Assembly: GCA_015039465.1 (NCBI GenBank)
Contig: MU130357.1
Location: 334,367-398,366 of the forward strand
DNA length: 64,000 bases
Origin: Phlegmacium glaucopus
Taxonomy: Eukaryota > Basidiomycota > Agaricomycetes > Agaricales > Cortinariaceae
Reading direction: 5' to 3'
Shown: positions 3,640-64,000 of the stretch, piece after piece
How positions within the stretch are numbered: the stretch's first letter is position 1
How the letters are laid out: each line of letters starts with the position of its first letter
Made by a program: the position numbers and the translations under genes
The notes under the pieces: generated by a model
Databases searched by the model: none
What the model was told of the DNA's origin: nothing
What the model saw: only the letters and a program-made list of their open reading frames with translations

Positions 3640-5386
3640 CAATGAGACTGTACAAGTTTGTTTTTCTCGTAATGTAGTCCAAATATAGGTATTTGGAGGC
3701 CCTCTGTTTACAAACTGCTGAGTTAATCCACGAAGCGTGACGCGCCTCTGTTGCGGGGATAGAGGCGGCAGCGGGTTGTAAGCCTGTTTTTGATGTGGTC
3801 AGCACACCATAAAGGAAGAATAGGGAACACCTACATCGTGGGAGATATACTGAAATTTGAATGGTCCAGTGTACGCGCTAGTTCCGACAATTTCCAAAGC
3901 CTCACTCAAATTAATAAAGTCATAAGAAGATTTGTCGTTGCTAGAAAAAAGTGAATTAACAATCAAAACACGAGCAAGAAAGAAGACCAAAAGTGAAACG
4001 CACGATGTATATTCACAAGGTTTAACATATTCAGCACCGTGACGTGGGTTTCTTTCTGTTTCTTTGTGTTCGAAGATCTGCTCGAAACGCCCCCGGACAG
4101 CCCGGACCCAATCTGGATTTTAGCGCAACAGATCGTTGTGAAAACCATGTTTGGCCTTGTGTTGAGCATCAACGGCAACTATCTGCCGCCGACCAACCCG
4201 CATGGAGCCTTTTTTTTTTGTTGACAAATTTGAACCAAGCGTATCCCATCCCAGGAGATTTCGTGCTTTGAAAACGTTCGCCAGAATTCCCATACGGGTG
4301 CAGGAGCTATCGAGCTGTTGCGAGTCTTTCCGACTTGAAAGCTTGAGAAGTTACAACCACCTCTTTTCTACACGCTTTAGAAAGTGGTTTTGATCAATAT
4401 ATGATAATTGGTATTTCAAACTGACTCGTCGAATCTGATACCAACGGATATTTGAGAGGTACCTCTTTCTTTCAAACCCAACAGTGTTTGGAAGTATAAC
4501 ATGGATGCATAGGTCCACGACGCGATATCCGGGTTTCAATCATCGACGAGTCAGCCTCGTAAGGCCGCTATGAAGACCTACATGCCCGCCCACAGACGTG
4601 TCGTATGTTTCTTTGCCCATGTCGCGTTCACCTGTTTTGGATTGACAGAAAAATTGCCCCACTTGTTTGAAATCTTACTTATCAGGCCATAATATTTGAG
4701 CGAAGATCTAGCCAATGCACTTCTACTCACAATTTTTGGTTTTGGCCTGGTCTGATAGACTCCCCATCTGGCCTTCGATCATTGACTGTCCGCATACGGG
4801 GGCTGGGGCTAGCTATATTTCGAGGACATAGACTTGAGCACCAACCCGATTGCTTGAAATACGATGGTCCATGACGCCCTCGGACTATTCTCTTGGGCTC
4901 ATCAGATTATTGGAGCCGTGGACTTCCAAATCAAACTGTATCCTAAACGCTGCTTGGTCTCATGCATCTATTGACCAAGGATGGCAGAGGGTCGATCAGC
5001 TCCTCGCAGGTCGATCCATCATTTCATTTGACAGTTGGGTGAAATTCAATATCATTATATGGTCGACTAACTACAGGTGGGGGAGTGATTTTGAAATCAA
5101 GGAAATTCAAAACCGAGCGATGGAGTTTGAAACTACAAAGCCCCCGCAACGGTTATGGAATTCATGAATGGTCGAGTGACGCTGCCTTGGAGTCGACTTT
5201 TCATGGAATCTGTTTTTAGTGATTAACGATTTCGGACCCCTAAGAGTGTAAAGTGTTAGACGCACGGGTGGATTCATCGACGAGAGCAGCTTGTAACATA
5301 TATATTCATACGTGAAACGAATAGTAAGTACATTTGTTTCTTTGACGAAATCAGGAAAGATAACTAATGTAAGGTTGCTCGCCACA
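3640..5386. other. Mostly non-coding stretch with a possible F-box-like fragment
   Basis: No convincing gene. A plus-strand open stretch at about 4870-5167 reads WSHASIDQGWQRVDQLL, which resembles the C-terminal tryptophan/VDxxL pattern of agaricomycete F-box/LRR proteins; compare DWARVDHVL at 51376-51654. No start, F-box or splice structure could be found around it, so it is at most a remnant. The rest (3640-4860) shows no coding signal. Confidence 0.3.
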
Positions 5387-5791
5387 CTAAACTTTGGCGT
5401 CTATGAATTTAAGAACAGCAAATAAATCTAAATACTCTCTCAAGCTCTGAATCTTTCCATCTTTGATAACAAACTTCAACACAACATCATTCTCATAAAC
5501 CCTCCCATCTTGAACTTCTATCCTTGGCGATGCTTCAACGACAACTGTGTCGCCCTCTGTGGTGATCCCTCTTATTGTAATCTTGGATGATTTTTTTTCT
5601 TTGAATATCTCCCCCATCTGCTGCTCCCTCTCGGCGTAGGGGTAGGTGCCGGTGTAAGGGGACATCTCTTTTCGTCCAGAAATCCACCACGTCGCGTCTG
5701 GTGCACCTAGCGCGAAAAGCTCATCATAACGACTGTCGGTTAGGTATTCAATCCATTGGAGAGCAATGCGGCGGTTTTCTTCTTCTGACAT
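5387..5791 (-). CDS. SnoaL-like / NTF2-fold protein
   Basis: Single-exon 134-residue protein. It begins MSEEENRRIALQWIEYLTD and ends with ALREYLD-type residues (SLREYLDLFAVLKFI), the helix-start and beta-sheet-end pattern of small SnoaL-like domains (cone-shaped NTF2 fold). Motifs typical of the family are the early Trp pair (ATWWISG), the EVQDGRVYEND hairpin and the closing K-I-x-x-L-R-E-Y/E-Y. Such proteins act as small cyclases, isomerases or ligand-binding proteins; the substrate cannot be told from sequence. The length is usual for the family. The ATG at 5791 is the only sensible start. No operon-like context; upstream is a long non-coding stretch. Probably intact. Confidence 0.8.
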   Translation of the reverse strand: MSEEENRRIALQWIEYLTDSRYDELFALGAPDATWWISGRKEMSPYTGTYPYAEREQQMGEIFKEKKSSKITIRGITTEGDTVVVEASPRIEVQDGRVYENDVVLKFVIKDGKIQSLREYLDLFAVLKFIDAKV

Positions 5792-38034: not shown

Positions 38035-41000
38035 ATGTCTAACAAAAATCAGACACAGACCAACAAGAAGCAACTTACGGCCAACGCAAAACGCCAAGCG
38101 ACCCTAGCAGCTCGTCAAGTTGAAGAAAAACAGGAAGCCCTCCTCCTCGAGCAAGAAACTGCAGGCAAGTACCGCCCAGTAATTTTAAAGAAGCTACATG
38201 AGCTTATTTGTGTCCTTGGTAGGCGGGCGCAGGTCCAAGAACAAGGCTCTTGAGGACATGAAAACCGCAGGTGAGTTGACACATCATCTTATTGTCTACC
38301 CGAAGTTGGGCATAAAATGACTCAGCCGTCTAGATTGGAATCGCCACCGCAAGCGTGCTGGGTCAGATGGAAACCAGCCGCCACAGCCAAAACGAGTCAA
38401 GGATGGATCCTCCTCAAAGCCTGGTATGTTGCTTTATCCAAGTAGCCCAAGAACTTTGAACCAGTGTTGACAATGACTCCAGGAAAACCGACAAGAAAGC
38501 CTGCTGCCCAAGAAGATATTGATACAGAAGCGTGGTGTACCCAAGAAGGGACACCCAGGCTCACGGTGACTGAATCACTTCCAGTGAAGTATCACAATAA
38601 AAATAAAAGTGTCCAAAGCCGAGAGGGGCCTGCAGCTCCAGGTGACGGTGCGGGTTCAAGCAAGCGCAATAAGGGTTTGCAGTTGCACAATAACGAGAGG
38701 GATGATCTATGGGAGGAAGACGCAGCTCCCAACATGAGTAATGGAGAGGGGGAAGGTGGAGAGGAGGAAGAGGAGGATGGTCGCAGTGGAGATGTCGACG
38801 TTGCTAACCAGGACTTTGAGGTAAGTGTCACATTTGAATTGCCTCCATGGGAAATTGATGGATTCCCAATAAGCGGGCACAATGGCGCTCAACGTCAGCT
38901 GCCAGACATGGGAATGATATGCCGAAAGGAGTCAATAACTATGAGGAAGATGACTCCGATATATACCTACTGCCAGTGACAGACATTGATACAACTGATT
39001 CCGAGCAACACAGCAGCTGGAATGTTGAAGATGACGATGAAGAGGACAGTCACGCTGCTACTAGTACCCAAAATGAGGCGACTCAGTCCAAGCCTCAAAA
39101 ATCAGTACAGGTTCCAAAAAAATCCCTGCTGGTTTAGGGTTACCAAAGTTCAGTTCAGTTCAGTTCTTCACCTCCTCAGCCTGAACTGAACTGAACTGTT
39201 TGCATATGGTCCTGAACTGAACTGAACCATTTAAGAACTGGTTCGGACTGAACTGAACTGAAGAACCATTATAAAATCTGAAATTTTACCTTTTTCTGAC
39301 AATTTATTGTACAAAGACCTTCCTTAGCCCTTAGCCACTTGATTTCCACTCATACATGATCTCAGAACTCCTTTAGAACACAGAAAACCATTGATTTATA
39401 TTTATTTTCCTAAATAGGCAGAAATAATCTATGCTGACATAATCACATCACATACCAAGTCTGGCCATTACCTCCTTCCTTAGCCATTATTTCATGCTAA
39501 AAAGGACTGCCAAACCCTTCCAATGTTCATAAATTACTGAAGGATCACTTTCCAGAAAATATTGAGTCAAAAGAAGAGAATTGCCTGGCCCTCTAGGACC
39601 TAATGGTTCAGCAGTTCAGTTCAGTTCGAACTGCATGAACCATAAATCTCTAAATGCCTGAACCTGAACTGAACTGAACTGAATTATCAGTTCAGTTCAG
39701 TTCAGTTCAGGTTCATGAGTCAGTTCTGAACTGAACTTTGGTAACCCTATGCTGGTTCCGCTGAAGAAGAAATACGCAGGCAGAGGTAAGTTGTTACTAT
39801 TATAATTATGTAAGCCTGAGTATTATAATACTTACAGCAACCAACGTGGTCCACGCTGGCCCATCCTCAAGGCAAGAAAAGAACGCAGGTATGCCACTGT
39901 GAGATCTTCTTGGACCTGACGAACTTACCTGTGTAAATATACCCAAGAACCCTGTGGTCATTAGCGATAGCGAACCTGAAAGCCCTAATCTGGGAAACGA
40001 ATCTAGGGAAGAGTCAGAGGTGGATGAACTCTCCGAGGAGAATTGGGCTCCCCGTACACGCCTGGTCTTTGACGAAGGCCAGCGTTACATAGGTCTCAAA
40101 TCCCAAACACCGACCATCAAGTCTGTAATTCATGCAGGAATGGATGGGATGATAAGATATGGCATCATTGAGAACACCTTTCCATCCCCCGACGACATCA
40201 ACTCAATCATCCACAAAATCCTTCGCAATGCTGCACGTAGCTCCCCTATTCAGGCTCATGATATAGCAGATCGACTGACGAAAGATGTCGGGTATGGGGA
40301 TGCAATGGGCCATCTTGTGAGTGATCTGGCTGAAAAACATCTACTTACTCATCACATCCAAGTCTCCAGATAAAAGCCCGCTTCTCTTCAATTCGGACTG
40401 ATGTACGTGAGATTGCTGCTCATAAATCTGAGAGTCATTACCAGCTGCGAGCCGGGCCTGGGTGTGCTGCGAAGGTGAAGGCACTTCTCAAGGATGATGC
40501 GTTCATCTTTTCAGCCGATGTATGTTCCCCTTCTGACAGCCATTTCCTTGAGAATGACACACTGGTTGTAGGACAAAGGCCTTCCAATTTCAAGCAAGCC
40601 ATACTGTCACGATGCAATCATCGCCGTTCTGCAATGGTTTTTTAAAGACAAATCGTCAATTGGCCGCCGCAATGCAAGCCACCTCAAGTCAAGTATGCCT
40701 GATCATGCCGAACACAGTAAGGAGCTAGAGATACCTGTTGCTATGCTCACGTTTTCAGTAACCATGGTATGTGGGCTATTTGTGAATCCTGGCGTGATGC
40801 TTACTCATGCTGCCTGTATGACCAGCTGTACGTCGAACTTCTCGACTGGCACATGGGAAAGCAAGTTCGGTCAAAATTTAATGCAGATGAATTGGTTTCA
40901 ACCTATCAACACCATGTCAATGTCATCAACGCTATCCGAGACAAGCGGCCTGTCAAGTTTCATCGACTCATGTCGAACTTGTATGTCGAGGCAATGTCTG

Positions 41001-60545: not shown

Positions 60546-61829
60546 GTACAGAGAAAATTGACAATCTCGACTTGACCTTGGCAGATGGAATAGTGATCAC
60601 ACGAGCAACAATAATACTAATAGGCGAAGCTGTAGTTCTCGTCATTGAGGAGGACAAGAACGAAATCGGCAACGGAAGCTCCTGTTATGAACGTCTGGTA
60701 TGGTCCATGACCCCATTCCTTTTTCTCCCGTTTCTTTACTGTACATTGCATCTTCCTTCATCGTTCCCTTCTTACACCACCTCTTTCCCTACTTACCCTT
60801 TGCCCTGAACCTTCCATGTACTATACTTAGCTATCGCTTTCGTTCCCTCTATCTCTGACTTGTACCGACTTGTACTTCCAGCACGGACCATTCCCTTATC
60901 TCTGACTCGACCCCTTAGTATATAAGAGCCATACCCATAGCCATGATCCCTAGTTTAGACCTTTGTATTCCTACGGTCTTAATCTACACAGCTTGCTCAG
61001 AACCTGCTGTCCTCAGTCTTACTTGTTGAATATGATTGCAACTGTACAGACAGTCCCTAGTTATTTGGTCTATTGGCCCAGCACCGAACGCGAGTGCAAG
61101 CTTATAGTTGCCGTAACAGCTCCGATCATCAATAGTGTTACCAAAGTTCGGTTCAGTTCGGTTCTTCAACTATTTTTGGAGAACCGAGAACCGAACTGAA
61201 AGGTTCCTGGATGAACTGAACCAGAACCGGAACTGGAACTGAAAGAACCGGTTCTGTCGGTTCTGTTCAGTTCGAGAACCGGTTCGAACCATCGAACCAA
61301 TGAAAAAAAACCCCATTGCCAATGGTAATTTATTCATTATTACATTATTACTAGTAGCCTGATAAACTAAACTAAGTGGGTCCAAACTAGTGGTTAGTGT
61401 CTAAATGAGTGAGTTGTTCATCCATTGTAGCTTGGTATTAGAAATAAAATGACTGCCAGGTTGCTGCCTTTGCTGCCACTCATTCGTCGCTGCCGTTCAT
61501 TCAGCCATCGCGAGTCCATTTGTTTGTCATCCCTTTGTTGAACAAGTAGGCCGTCATTGTGTCGTGTGTTTGTCGTTCATCCATTGTACTCGACGCTCAT
61601 TCAACACCATTTGCTCGTTATCATGTGTCTGTTGTAGTTTAAGTACATTAGAATTAATTTTAATTTGAAAAAAATACCTTCCAAGAGGGTGGGGCCGGTG
61701 GGCAAGCTACATAGGTCAGGGATTACTCTGATGGTTCCAAAAACATGGGTCAAGCTGTCAACTTGAAGATAATGAATGATAAGGTATTTTATGAACCACA
61801 GCTGGCATACCTTGGCCCATGATGTCGTT

Positions 61830-62100
61830 TATGACACCCCTAAGTCGTCATCCATTCGTTTGTCATCCATTCATCATCTGTCAGTCATCCATTTGTTCAT
61901 CGTCCATTTGTTCGTCGTCCATTTGTTTGTCGTCCATTTGTTTGTCGTCATTCACTCGTTGTTCGTTCATCGTCATTCATTCGTTCATCATCATTCACCA
62001 TCCGTCAGTCGTCCGTTTGTTCGTCGTCCATCTGTTTGTCGTTCATTCGTTCATCGTCATTCGTTTATTCGTTGTTGTCACTTATTTGTCATTGTCGTCG
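61830..62100 (+). repeat. TTCGTCGTCCATTTG-type minisatellite inside the hAT element
   Basis: Imperfect units of about 15 bp (TTTGTTCGTCGTCCA, TTCGTTCATCGTCAT). Related TCGTT/GTTGTTTG runs recur at 61490-61620, 62450-62510 and 62900-63010, all within the element. Confidence 0.85.
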
Positions 62101-62103
62101 TAG

Positions 62104-62848
62104 CCTAAATCTTGCAAAATGTTTTGGATATGAGTGTCAGATTTGGAATAAACGATGAACAACGGGAATTTGGATTGTTTGCAGTTCCGAATGATGGAGA
62201 TATTGATTTCGGTGAAGCACTACAACAAATGATATGGTCAGCCAGCATTAGATAAAATTGATAGAAATAATTACTGTATCATATACCAAGATGACGATAT
62301 CAAAAATAAAAAGGGCTTGTTCGTTGAAGTATTGCGACCCGGGCATTTTAGGAGTGCCAGCACCTGAATAATCAAACCAGACAAGACGATTGTATGGAAT
62401 TTTCTGGTGAGGATCAGGATAACGAGCGATAGCCTTGGTAGTTAACCTGGCGTTTGTTCGTCATTGTTGTTTGTTCGTCATTGTTGTTTGGCATTGTTTG
62501 TTCATTTGTCTGTTGTAGTTTACATTAGAATTAAGTTAGAATTAGAAAACATACCTTAGAAGACATACCTCCAGGGGGTAGTGCTCGTCATCGTGACGTG
62601 GTGAGATGGTGTGGCTCTTATGGGAGGCCTGATTGATGAGGATGGTTAAATGCTTAAGGATGCGATGGGTGAAGCTGAACAGTAAACATCTTGAATGCTC
62701 TGCCAGCGACTTGAATAATTTGTGCGCTTGCAGCCACAGCATTCACGGGAACGGATAGCATGGGATCGGCGGTGCTTGTTTTGATGGTCGATGTTGAAGT
62801 TGGTGGTTCAGAGCTTGAATCCAAAGCATCGTTGATGGTCAGAGGCAT
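62104..62848 (-). pseudogene. Fragment of an IRG/IIGP-like GTPase gene inside the hAT element
   Basis: Minus-strand text from about 62450 to 62275 reads AIARYPDPHQKIPYNRLVWF followed by DYSGAGTPKMPGSQYFNEQA and LFIFDIVILVYDT; after an intron-like gap, an exon from about 62216 reads CFTEINISIIRNCKQSKFPL then FIVYSKSDTHIQNIL. This is the G3 (WDxPGxGTP, here WFDYSGAGTP) to G4 (xKxD, here SKSD) region of immunity-related GTPases. Further upstream, from ATG 62848, MPLTINDALDSSSEPPTSTS could be a 5' exon of the same gene. The P-loop exon was not found. Conserved intron position and GTPase motifs argue for capture of a host gene piece. Confidence 0.6.
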
Positions 62849-64000
62849 GCGGCCGCAGCAGGAACGGATAGCATGGGATCAGCGGTGATCGATGTCAAAG
62901 TTGCTGGTTCTCGTTTGTCGTCGTTTGCTGGTTCTCATTTGTCGTTGTTTGTTCATGTTTGTTCATTCATTGTCGGCGTTCGTTGTTGTTGTTTGTTCAT
63001 TGTTGTTTGTTGAATCGTCATTTGTCTGTAGTAGTTTATATTAGATTTAAATTAAATTTTTTAAAAAATACCTGCCAAGGTAGTACCGGTGCTTGTCATC
63101 GTTGTGCTCGACATTGTTGTCCGTGCTTGTGGTAGTCATCCCTGTGTACTGTCATATACTTTAATTAAATCGAGAAATTTACCAAAAATAACTCCCCCGG
63201 TGGGGAGTTGTTGGCGTTGTTGGTGTGGTTGTGGTATTGTTGGTGTTGTCAGCGTTGTTGATAATGGGAGTCACTGATTTTTCAAACTCCGAAATCCAAA
63301 ACATTGGGTTGGGCGCCTAACAATATTTTATAGATTATAAATTCAATTCTCTGCGGAAAATTTAGAAAAAAAATCTACATAAAGTTCGGTTCAAACTGGT
63401 TCGAACCCAGTTCTCAAAATCTTAGAAATATGAGAACCGAGAACCGGACCGATGGTCCAAGATTCTTGGACCAAACTGAACTGAACCTGAACCAACGGTT
63501 CAGTTCTTTCGGTTCTTGGTTCTTGCGCCAGTTCGGAACCGAACTTTGGCATCACTAATCATCAACCCAGGCAGGTTTGTTTATGGTCAGTCTTGTGCAC
63601 AATCAAACATACGTGCTTTCATATCTTTCCTAATCTTTCTCACTCATCGAGGCTGTTCCTTAGCATGCCAAAATTTGACAGAACTGCTGCTGTCCCACTC
63701 TCCTCATCGCAATTGCTGGTGCATCGATTGCTATCCTCGATGCTATCTGGACAGATGAAATCATTGTTCAACGCCTCACCAACTACATCTGGCTCGGTCA
63801 CGATACCATCTCAAATGATGAAGCTATATATCGCAATGCGTGTATCTTGCACGCGCTTGCCCACAATCTATGCAGGCTGGACACATTTTACAAATCTCTC
63901 AAGATTCAGCCTCAGCCTCAGCCTCCTAATCCAAAGAAACTTGAACCTCGCTATTGTATGAATTGGTACGAGTATCGAAGGGGATAGAGTCTTTTTAGAC

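Follow-up and report, generated by a model that had tools for sequence, protein, structure and literature searches.

A probable Pack-type hAT element with a captured piece of an IRG/IIGP-like GTPase gene in the mushroom Phlegmacium glaucopus

The element and its family

Positions 61133-63557 of the window (the whole 64,000-nucleotide stretch of DNA that was analysed) very probably constitute, in Phlegmacium glaucopus, a non-autonomous hAT element of the Pack type (a transduplicating element), the backbone of which took up DNA from a GTPase gene. The element is 2425 bp long, carries 22-bp imperfect inverted ends and is flanked by an 8-bp duplication. The short inverted ends of hAT elements begin with the consensus YARNG, and both ends start here with TAGTG; the 8-bp target site duplication of the superfamily is present in exact form, as an earlier note on this DNA had claimed. 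The kinship that the note saw with a 615-bp element elsewhere in the window is borne out as well, the latter having the same type of ends and its own exact duplication. The features concerned are the following.

61125..61132, no strand: target site duplication ATCATCAA, left copy, exact match to the right copy
61133..63557, no strand: non-autonomous hAT-type element, 2425 bp, with paired ends and two full-length relatives at 93-94%
61133..61154, plus strand: left terminal inverted repeat TAGTGTTACCAAAGTTCGGTTC, from end comparison
63536..63557, minus strand: right terminal inverted repeat TAGTGATGCCAAAGTTCGGTTC, matching the 5' side of transposase-bearing relatives; presumed promoter role
63558..63565, no strand: target site duplication ATCATCAA, right copy, exact match to the left copy
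39135..39749, no strand: 615-bp relative, ends of the same type, exact duplication TGCTGGTT

In the 60.5-Mb P. glaucopus assembly the terminal pattern TAGNGNTNCCAAAGTTYRGTTC was found at 326 forward and 323 reverse sites, against 11 and 10 (21 in all) for the reversed control in the same assembly. With 649 terminal motif copies, the hAT group with these ends is very abundant in this fungus. Pairing of the ends gave 24 combinations, from which three cross-pairings between neighbours were excluded. The 21 elements left comprise 16 with an exact 8-bp duplication, three with one mismatch and two with none (L013, and L018 at 3663-5503). Four loci without paired ends (L050-L053) stand outside this count.

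The captured GTPase piece and its donor

The interior of the element holds a piece of a host gene, adjoined by minisatellite-like repeats.

62088..62443, minus strand: 356 bp captured from the IRG/IIGP-like GTPase gene BYT27DRAFT_7339271
62275..62442, minus strand: captured exon part 1, 168 nt, containing DYSGAG (presumed G3)
62220..62274, minus strand: captured intron, 55 bp, with its splice signals preserved and 50 of 55 bases shared with the parent
62088..62219, minus strand: captured exon part 2, containing SKSD (presumed G4)
61859..62077, no strand: minisatellite-like repeats of the GTCCATTTGTTCGTC type, adjoining the captured piece

The minus strand of the piece encodes TTKAIARYPDPHQKIPYNRLVWFDYSGAGTPKMPGSQYFNEQALFIFDIVILVYDT, followed by the intron, with its GT, CTAAT and AG signals, and then by CFTEINISIIRNCKQSKFPLFIVYSKSDTHIQNILQDLGYDDND; we take DYSGAG and SKSD to be the G3 and G4 motifs of a GTPase. 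When the two exon parts are joined they reach 29.8 bits against the Pfam IIGP family (PF05049, cut-off 24). The ORF holding exon 1 scores 16.4 bits, under the same cut-off, and exon 2 by itself gives no PF05049 match, so the match depends on the exon join. The earlier note had read a G3/G4 region with an intron on this strand, and had named failure to match any GTPase profile as fatal to that reading; the profile is matched, and the reading holds. Its placement at 62100-62850 is right in part only, since the piece does lie there but is confined to 62088-62443, and 62618-62844 belongs to a different, dispersed repeat.

The parental gene that the earlier note expected in the genome is located on contig C148. 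At C148:54809-55162 it is 92% identical in DNA to the piece over 354 bp, across exon, intron and exon, while the next paralog is 83% identical and the other seven gene copies 73-80%. Over the query, the donor does not differ in sequence from BYT27DRAFT_7339271 of P. glaucopus; it encodes a 407-residue protein that scores 84.8 bits against IIGP. A DNA search placed the piece at 12 sites of the genome, three of them in elements and nine in the gene clusters of C148 and C62. Between the ends there is thus, as in Pack-TYPE elements, a host gene piece with an identified donor. Since the intron is included, genomic DNA was copied and not a spliced transcript; and because the donor gene is still whole and is a member of a cluster of similar genes, the direction of transfer was from gene to element.

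IRG/IIGP-like GTPases are a family best known from the immunity of animals. The P. glaucopus genome gives 12 PF05049 matches, of which C148 has nine and C62 three, and clusters of such genes in a mushroom are visible at C148:47-82 kb and C62:80-86 kb. Among the papers listed in literature searches, none had a title on such clusters in mushrooms.

State of the captured piece

The piece starts past GGSGSGKS of the donor, and so without the P-loop (G1) of a complete G domain, and covers about 100 of the 407 donor residues; with its start beyond the P-loop it cannot be a working GTPase. It differs from the donor at 19-23 of 285 exon bases and at 5 of the 55 intron positions. The dN/dS between piece and donor is 0.49-0.62, and among the donor and three gene paralogs 0.23-0.37; the higher ratio of the piece, from just 19-23 changes, suggests relaxed constraint, and the substitution figures, as read from the sequence, show no clear selective constraint. 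The piece is preceded by an in-frame TGA, with six codons and no ATG in between, and followed one codon later by an in-frame TAA; its first in-frame ATG is internal. Splicing from an upstream exon could alter the reading past these flanking stops. Given the missing P-loop, the in-frame stops on both sides and the lack of clear constraint, the cargo is probably inert.

An alternative would be that the captured piece is in use, either as a sense transcript or through small RNAs acting on the GTPase cluster. In the transposase-bearing relatives described below, the transposase domain lies near the end corresponding to the left end of the window element and reads towards that end; transcription would then start at the right end, the presumed promoter end, and run in the same direction as the GTPase piece, which would be in sense orientation. 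The piece also shares 56-97 of its 336 21-mers with the donor and only 0-5 with each of six paralog loci, and neither a stop nor a frameshift was found inside the two exon parts in any of the three copies. Use of the piece is nevertheless quite improbable in view of the close flanking stops and of a dN/dS above that among the gene paralogs. A search for a gene model covering the piece points the same way, no database protein of 55-175 aa sharing three words with it.

Transposase-bearing relatives

The hAT dimerisation domain (PF05699) has 116 matches in the genome, of which at least two lie between paired ends of the same type, among the ends listed. The first such element (L069, on C9) is 5602 bp long, has the exact duplication CTAAAGCA and holds 2121 N; the second (L070, on C23) is 5634 bp long, without a matching duplication and without N. 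The ORF at 5236-5484 of L070 scores 34.4 bits against PF05699 (cut-off 21.4), and a PF05699 match lies inside the L069 element too. Relatives with the same ends thus encode a hAT transposase domain, as expected of a hAT family. Their ends resemble those of the window element over about 160 bp at 76.5-77.5% and about 250 bp at 83-87%, and the other pieces in common are minisatellite-like. As to the window element itself, the earlier note had described it as lacking a transposase, and this is upheld: six ORFs of the window scanned against Pfam matched no hAT family, and DNA comparison with L069 and L070 agrees with that scan.

These relatives bear on whether the GTPase text could long have belonged to an autonomous hAT element as an integral component, which the earlier note had named as a finding that would overturn its proposal. 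There is a precedent, as the captured H3-like gene of Pyrenophora is described as sitting in a transposase-bearing hAT (PMC3538342), and the interior of L069 is incompletely known. However, neither relative with a transposase domain showed GTPase DNA, a result that is complete for L070 only, where nothing but the ends and minisatellite-like pieces is common with the window element. The 12 DNA matches of the piece are confined to the three elements and the two gene clusters, and relatives exist that do not contain it (L017 and L018, below). An origin within an autonomous element is accordingly very improbable, and capture from the C148 gene remains the preferred reading.

Movement after capture

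Two other full-length elements contain the GTPase piece, one on C128 (L010) with duplication GTAGGGGG and one on C144 (L011) with duplication GGCATGGA. The 300-bp flanks of the window copy, L010 and L011 have no mutual similarity at E 1e-3. Among the three copies the GTPase piece is 98.3-99.7% identical and the remainder of the element 95-98%. Three sites with different exact duplications and unrelated flanks imply at least two moves after capture, so that capture was followed by transposition, as in Pack-TYPE elements. That the ends merely enclose gene-derived DNA by chance or through a nested insertion at one place, with no mobile unit, is suggested by an interior that is a mosaic with other repeats but is next to impossible with the whole mosaic present between the ends at three unrelated sites. 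With the donor at 92%, the intron kept and three insertion sites, the Pack-type gene capture put forward by the earlier note is well supported.

Two cargo-free elements, L017 (C219) and L018 (C132), align to L010 on either side of the GTPase piece. The alignment ends at 861 and 859, respectively, and resumes at 1285 and 1300, the piece occupying 922-1277; 31 bases (L017) and 17 bases (L018) lie between the two aligned parts. The alignment crosses minisatellite-like repeats and these edges are approximate. A 12-mer lies across one junction of the GTPase piece, a length reached by 1.2% of 1500 random positions, and the other junction gives 7-8. None of 12 cargo-free elements contains this 12-mer, and two of the three copies have it only 15 bases beyond the cargo. 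As a signature of capture, microhomology finds no firm support here.

A further pair, L012 (C24) and L013 (C225), was considered as one backbone with swapped cargo and dropped, the middles being 640 and 807 N. Their backbones (L012 4148-6567, L013 3751-6103) are near-identical, and L012 has about 125 bp of differing sequence before the N gap.

In the account that we favour, an older backbone with internal minisatellite-like repeats received 356 bp from one gene of the IRG/IIGP-like cluster, the donor retaining its own copy of the captured stretch. A break in the minisatellite array may have been repaired by copying from the wrong template, the GTPase gene. The resulting element would then have been moved in trans by the hAT transposase of the relatives of about 5.6 kb that have the same ends.

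A second captured gene

Other elements with the same termini carry different cargo, as the earlier note had anticipated. One of them, L042 201-2239 (on C87, duplication TTGGAGTT), which belongs to another sub-family, carries DNA of the VPS54 locus, from C131:324820-325472, aligned over 401 bases at 90% identity and over another 79 at 86%. The only Vps54 (PF07928) locus of the genome is at C131:325589-326109, and the captured stretch lies on its 3' side. The copy runs across a GTGAGA...TTCTAG stretch, a putative intron, between two exon-like ORFs, presumably VPS54 exons; a 174-bp stretch of the gene is missing from L042. Three minus-strand ORFs of the region were scanned, two of which gave no Vps54 match and the third 24.6 bits (cut-off 27), and querying PDB by sequence with one of the region's ORFs returned nothing useful. 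The VPS54 piece is also found at a C20 locus (L052, 85%), as 32-34-bp remnants in L048 and L049, and at further matching places. On sequence comparison, then, at least two host genes have been captured by the family with these ends. The VPS54 piece is in sense orientation in L042; sense in two of two captures is too few to carry meaning.

At L041 860-1240 (on C72) sub-family B has a cargo of 357 bp whose relatives lie clustered on C128, C219, C13, C146 and C176; it matches them at 70-92% (40 of 72 candidates scored). A repeat of high copy number makes up the inside of the 1266-bp element in L017 (40 of 602 candidates scored).

Intron-like cassettes and other modules

Outside the GTPase piece, the element contains three intron-like cassettes and a second module.

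63026..63071, minus strand: intron-like cassette 1 (GTAT...TCTAAT...CAG), splicing presumed
62510..62554, minus strand: intron-like cassette 2, splicing presumed
61629..61677, minus strand: intron-like cassette 3, splicing presumed
62618..62844, minus strand: second module, fragment of a repeat or gene family that is dispersed and in part clustered; the ORFs scanned gave no Pfam match

The three cassettes are similar, 45-49 bp long, start with GTAT and end with TCTAAT...CTAC(A/T)ACAG, resembling fungal introns. By a pattern that covers the 3' part only, 16 of 17 elements about 2 kb long have at least one cassette; the four short elements and the two with a transposase domain (one of which contains N) have none, and two of the four unpaired loci have one. 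It is conceivable, though unlikely, that the elements of about 2 kb are built-in exon traps, in which a backbone with repeated, splice-ready cassettes (GTAT...TCTAAT...CTACWACAG) and minisatellite landing sites would gather host gene pieces in sense orientation and splice them into chimeric transcripts starting from the transposase-type promoter end. If this were true, agaric fungi would have in these elements a machine for exon shuffling.

The gene model BYT27DRAFT_7341178 (190 aa) appears on a related element, L015 5281-6024 (C189), its residues 48-138 matching at 99% and residues 1-49 and 165-190 at 96%. Such elements have therefore entered the gene catalogue.

Apart from the five closest elements, 35 places match the module at 62618-62844 with 80-91% identity (40 of 188 candidates scored), and at least two of them lie inside other elements of the family (L014 and L015). 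A relative of the module gave eight protein matches, all hypothetical, six from Phlegmacium glaucopus and two labelled jgi; none of the ORFs scanned had a Pfam match at the cut-off. The module may represent a gene family or another mobile element.

Comparison with known gene-capturing transposons

Pack-hAT elements have been described for maize (PMC8903248), and the P. glaucopus element resembles them in being non-autonomous, in having the inverted ends of an autonomous superfamily and a target duplication, and in holding host gene pieces inside. It departs from the plant Pack-TYPE elements described there in its fungal host and in the minisatellite-like mosaic and repeated intron-like cassettes that surround the cargo. 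Within the fungi, a hAT of Pyrenophora tritici-repentis multiplied a histone H3-like gene, a case termed the first fungal transduplication, and exists in a 5.6-kb form and a shorter, 2.3-kb non-autonomous form (PMC3538342). In Pseudocercospora fijiensis and its relatives it was a different hAT that captured H3, and the account in PMC6710886 describes both H3 captures as transcripts. Common to these cases and to P. glaucopus is a fungal hAT that captures and multiplies a host gene. The H3 captures, however, are those of ascomycetes and, by that account, of transcripts, whereas in the basidiomycete P. glaucopus intron-bearing genomic DNA was taken up, from two unrelated genes, and no transposase was found in the elements. 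Among basidiomycetes, capture of genes by another kind of DNA transposon, the Helitron, is described for Pleurotus (PMC4289320); Helitrons are rolling-circle elements, and the P. glaucopus element has instead inverted ends and an 8-bp duplication.

The earlier note had stressed novelty, and here its basidiomycete part stands, as an extension, but hAT transduplication in fungi has been in print since 2013, in ascomycetes, as far as PMC3538342 and PMC6710886 describe it. Among the titles listed in literature searches none concerned hAT gene capture in a basidiomycete, which is not proof of absence from print. The intron-bearing capture by a non-autonomous hAT element in an agaric is an extension of a known kind of transduplication. 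One mushroom offers here the donor, relatives free of the cargo, insertions at three sites and the capture of a second gene, with which tests of the gene-capture mechanism outside plants become possible. Moreover, capture from an IRG/IIGP-like cluster is a possible route by which such genes could be reshuffled.
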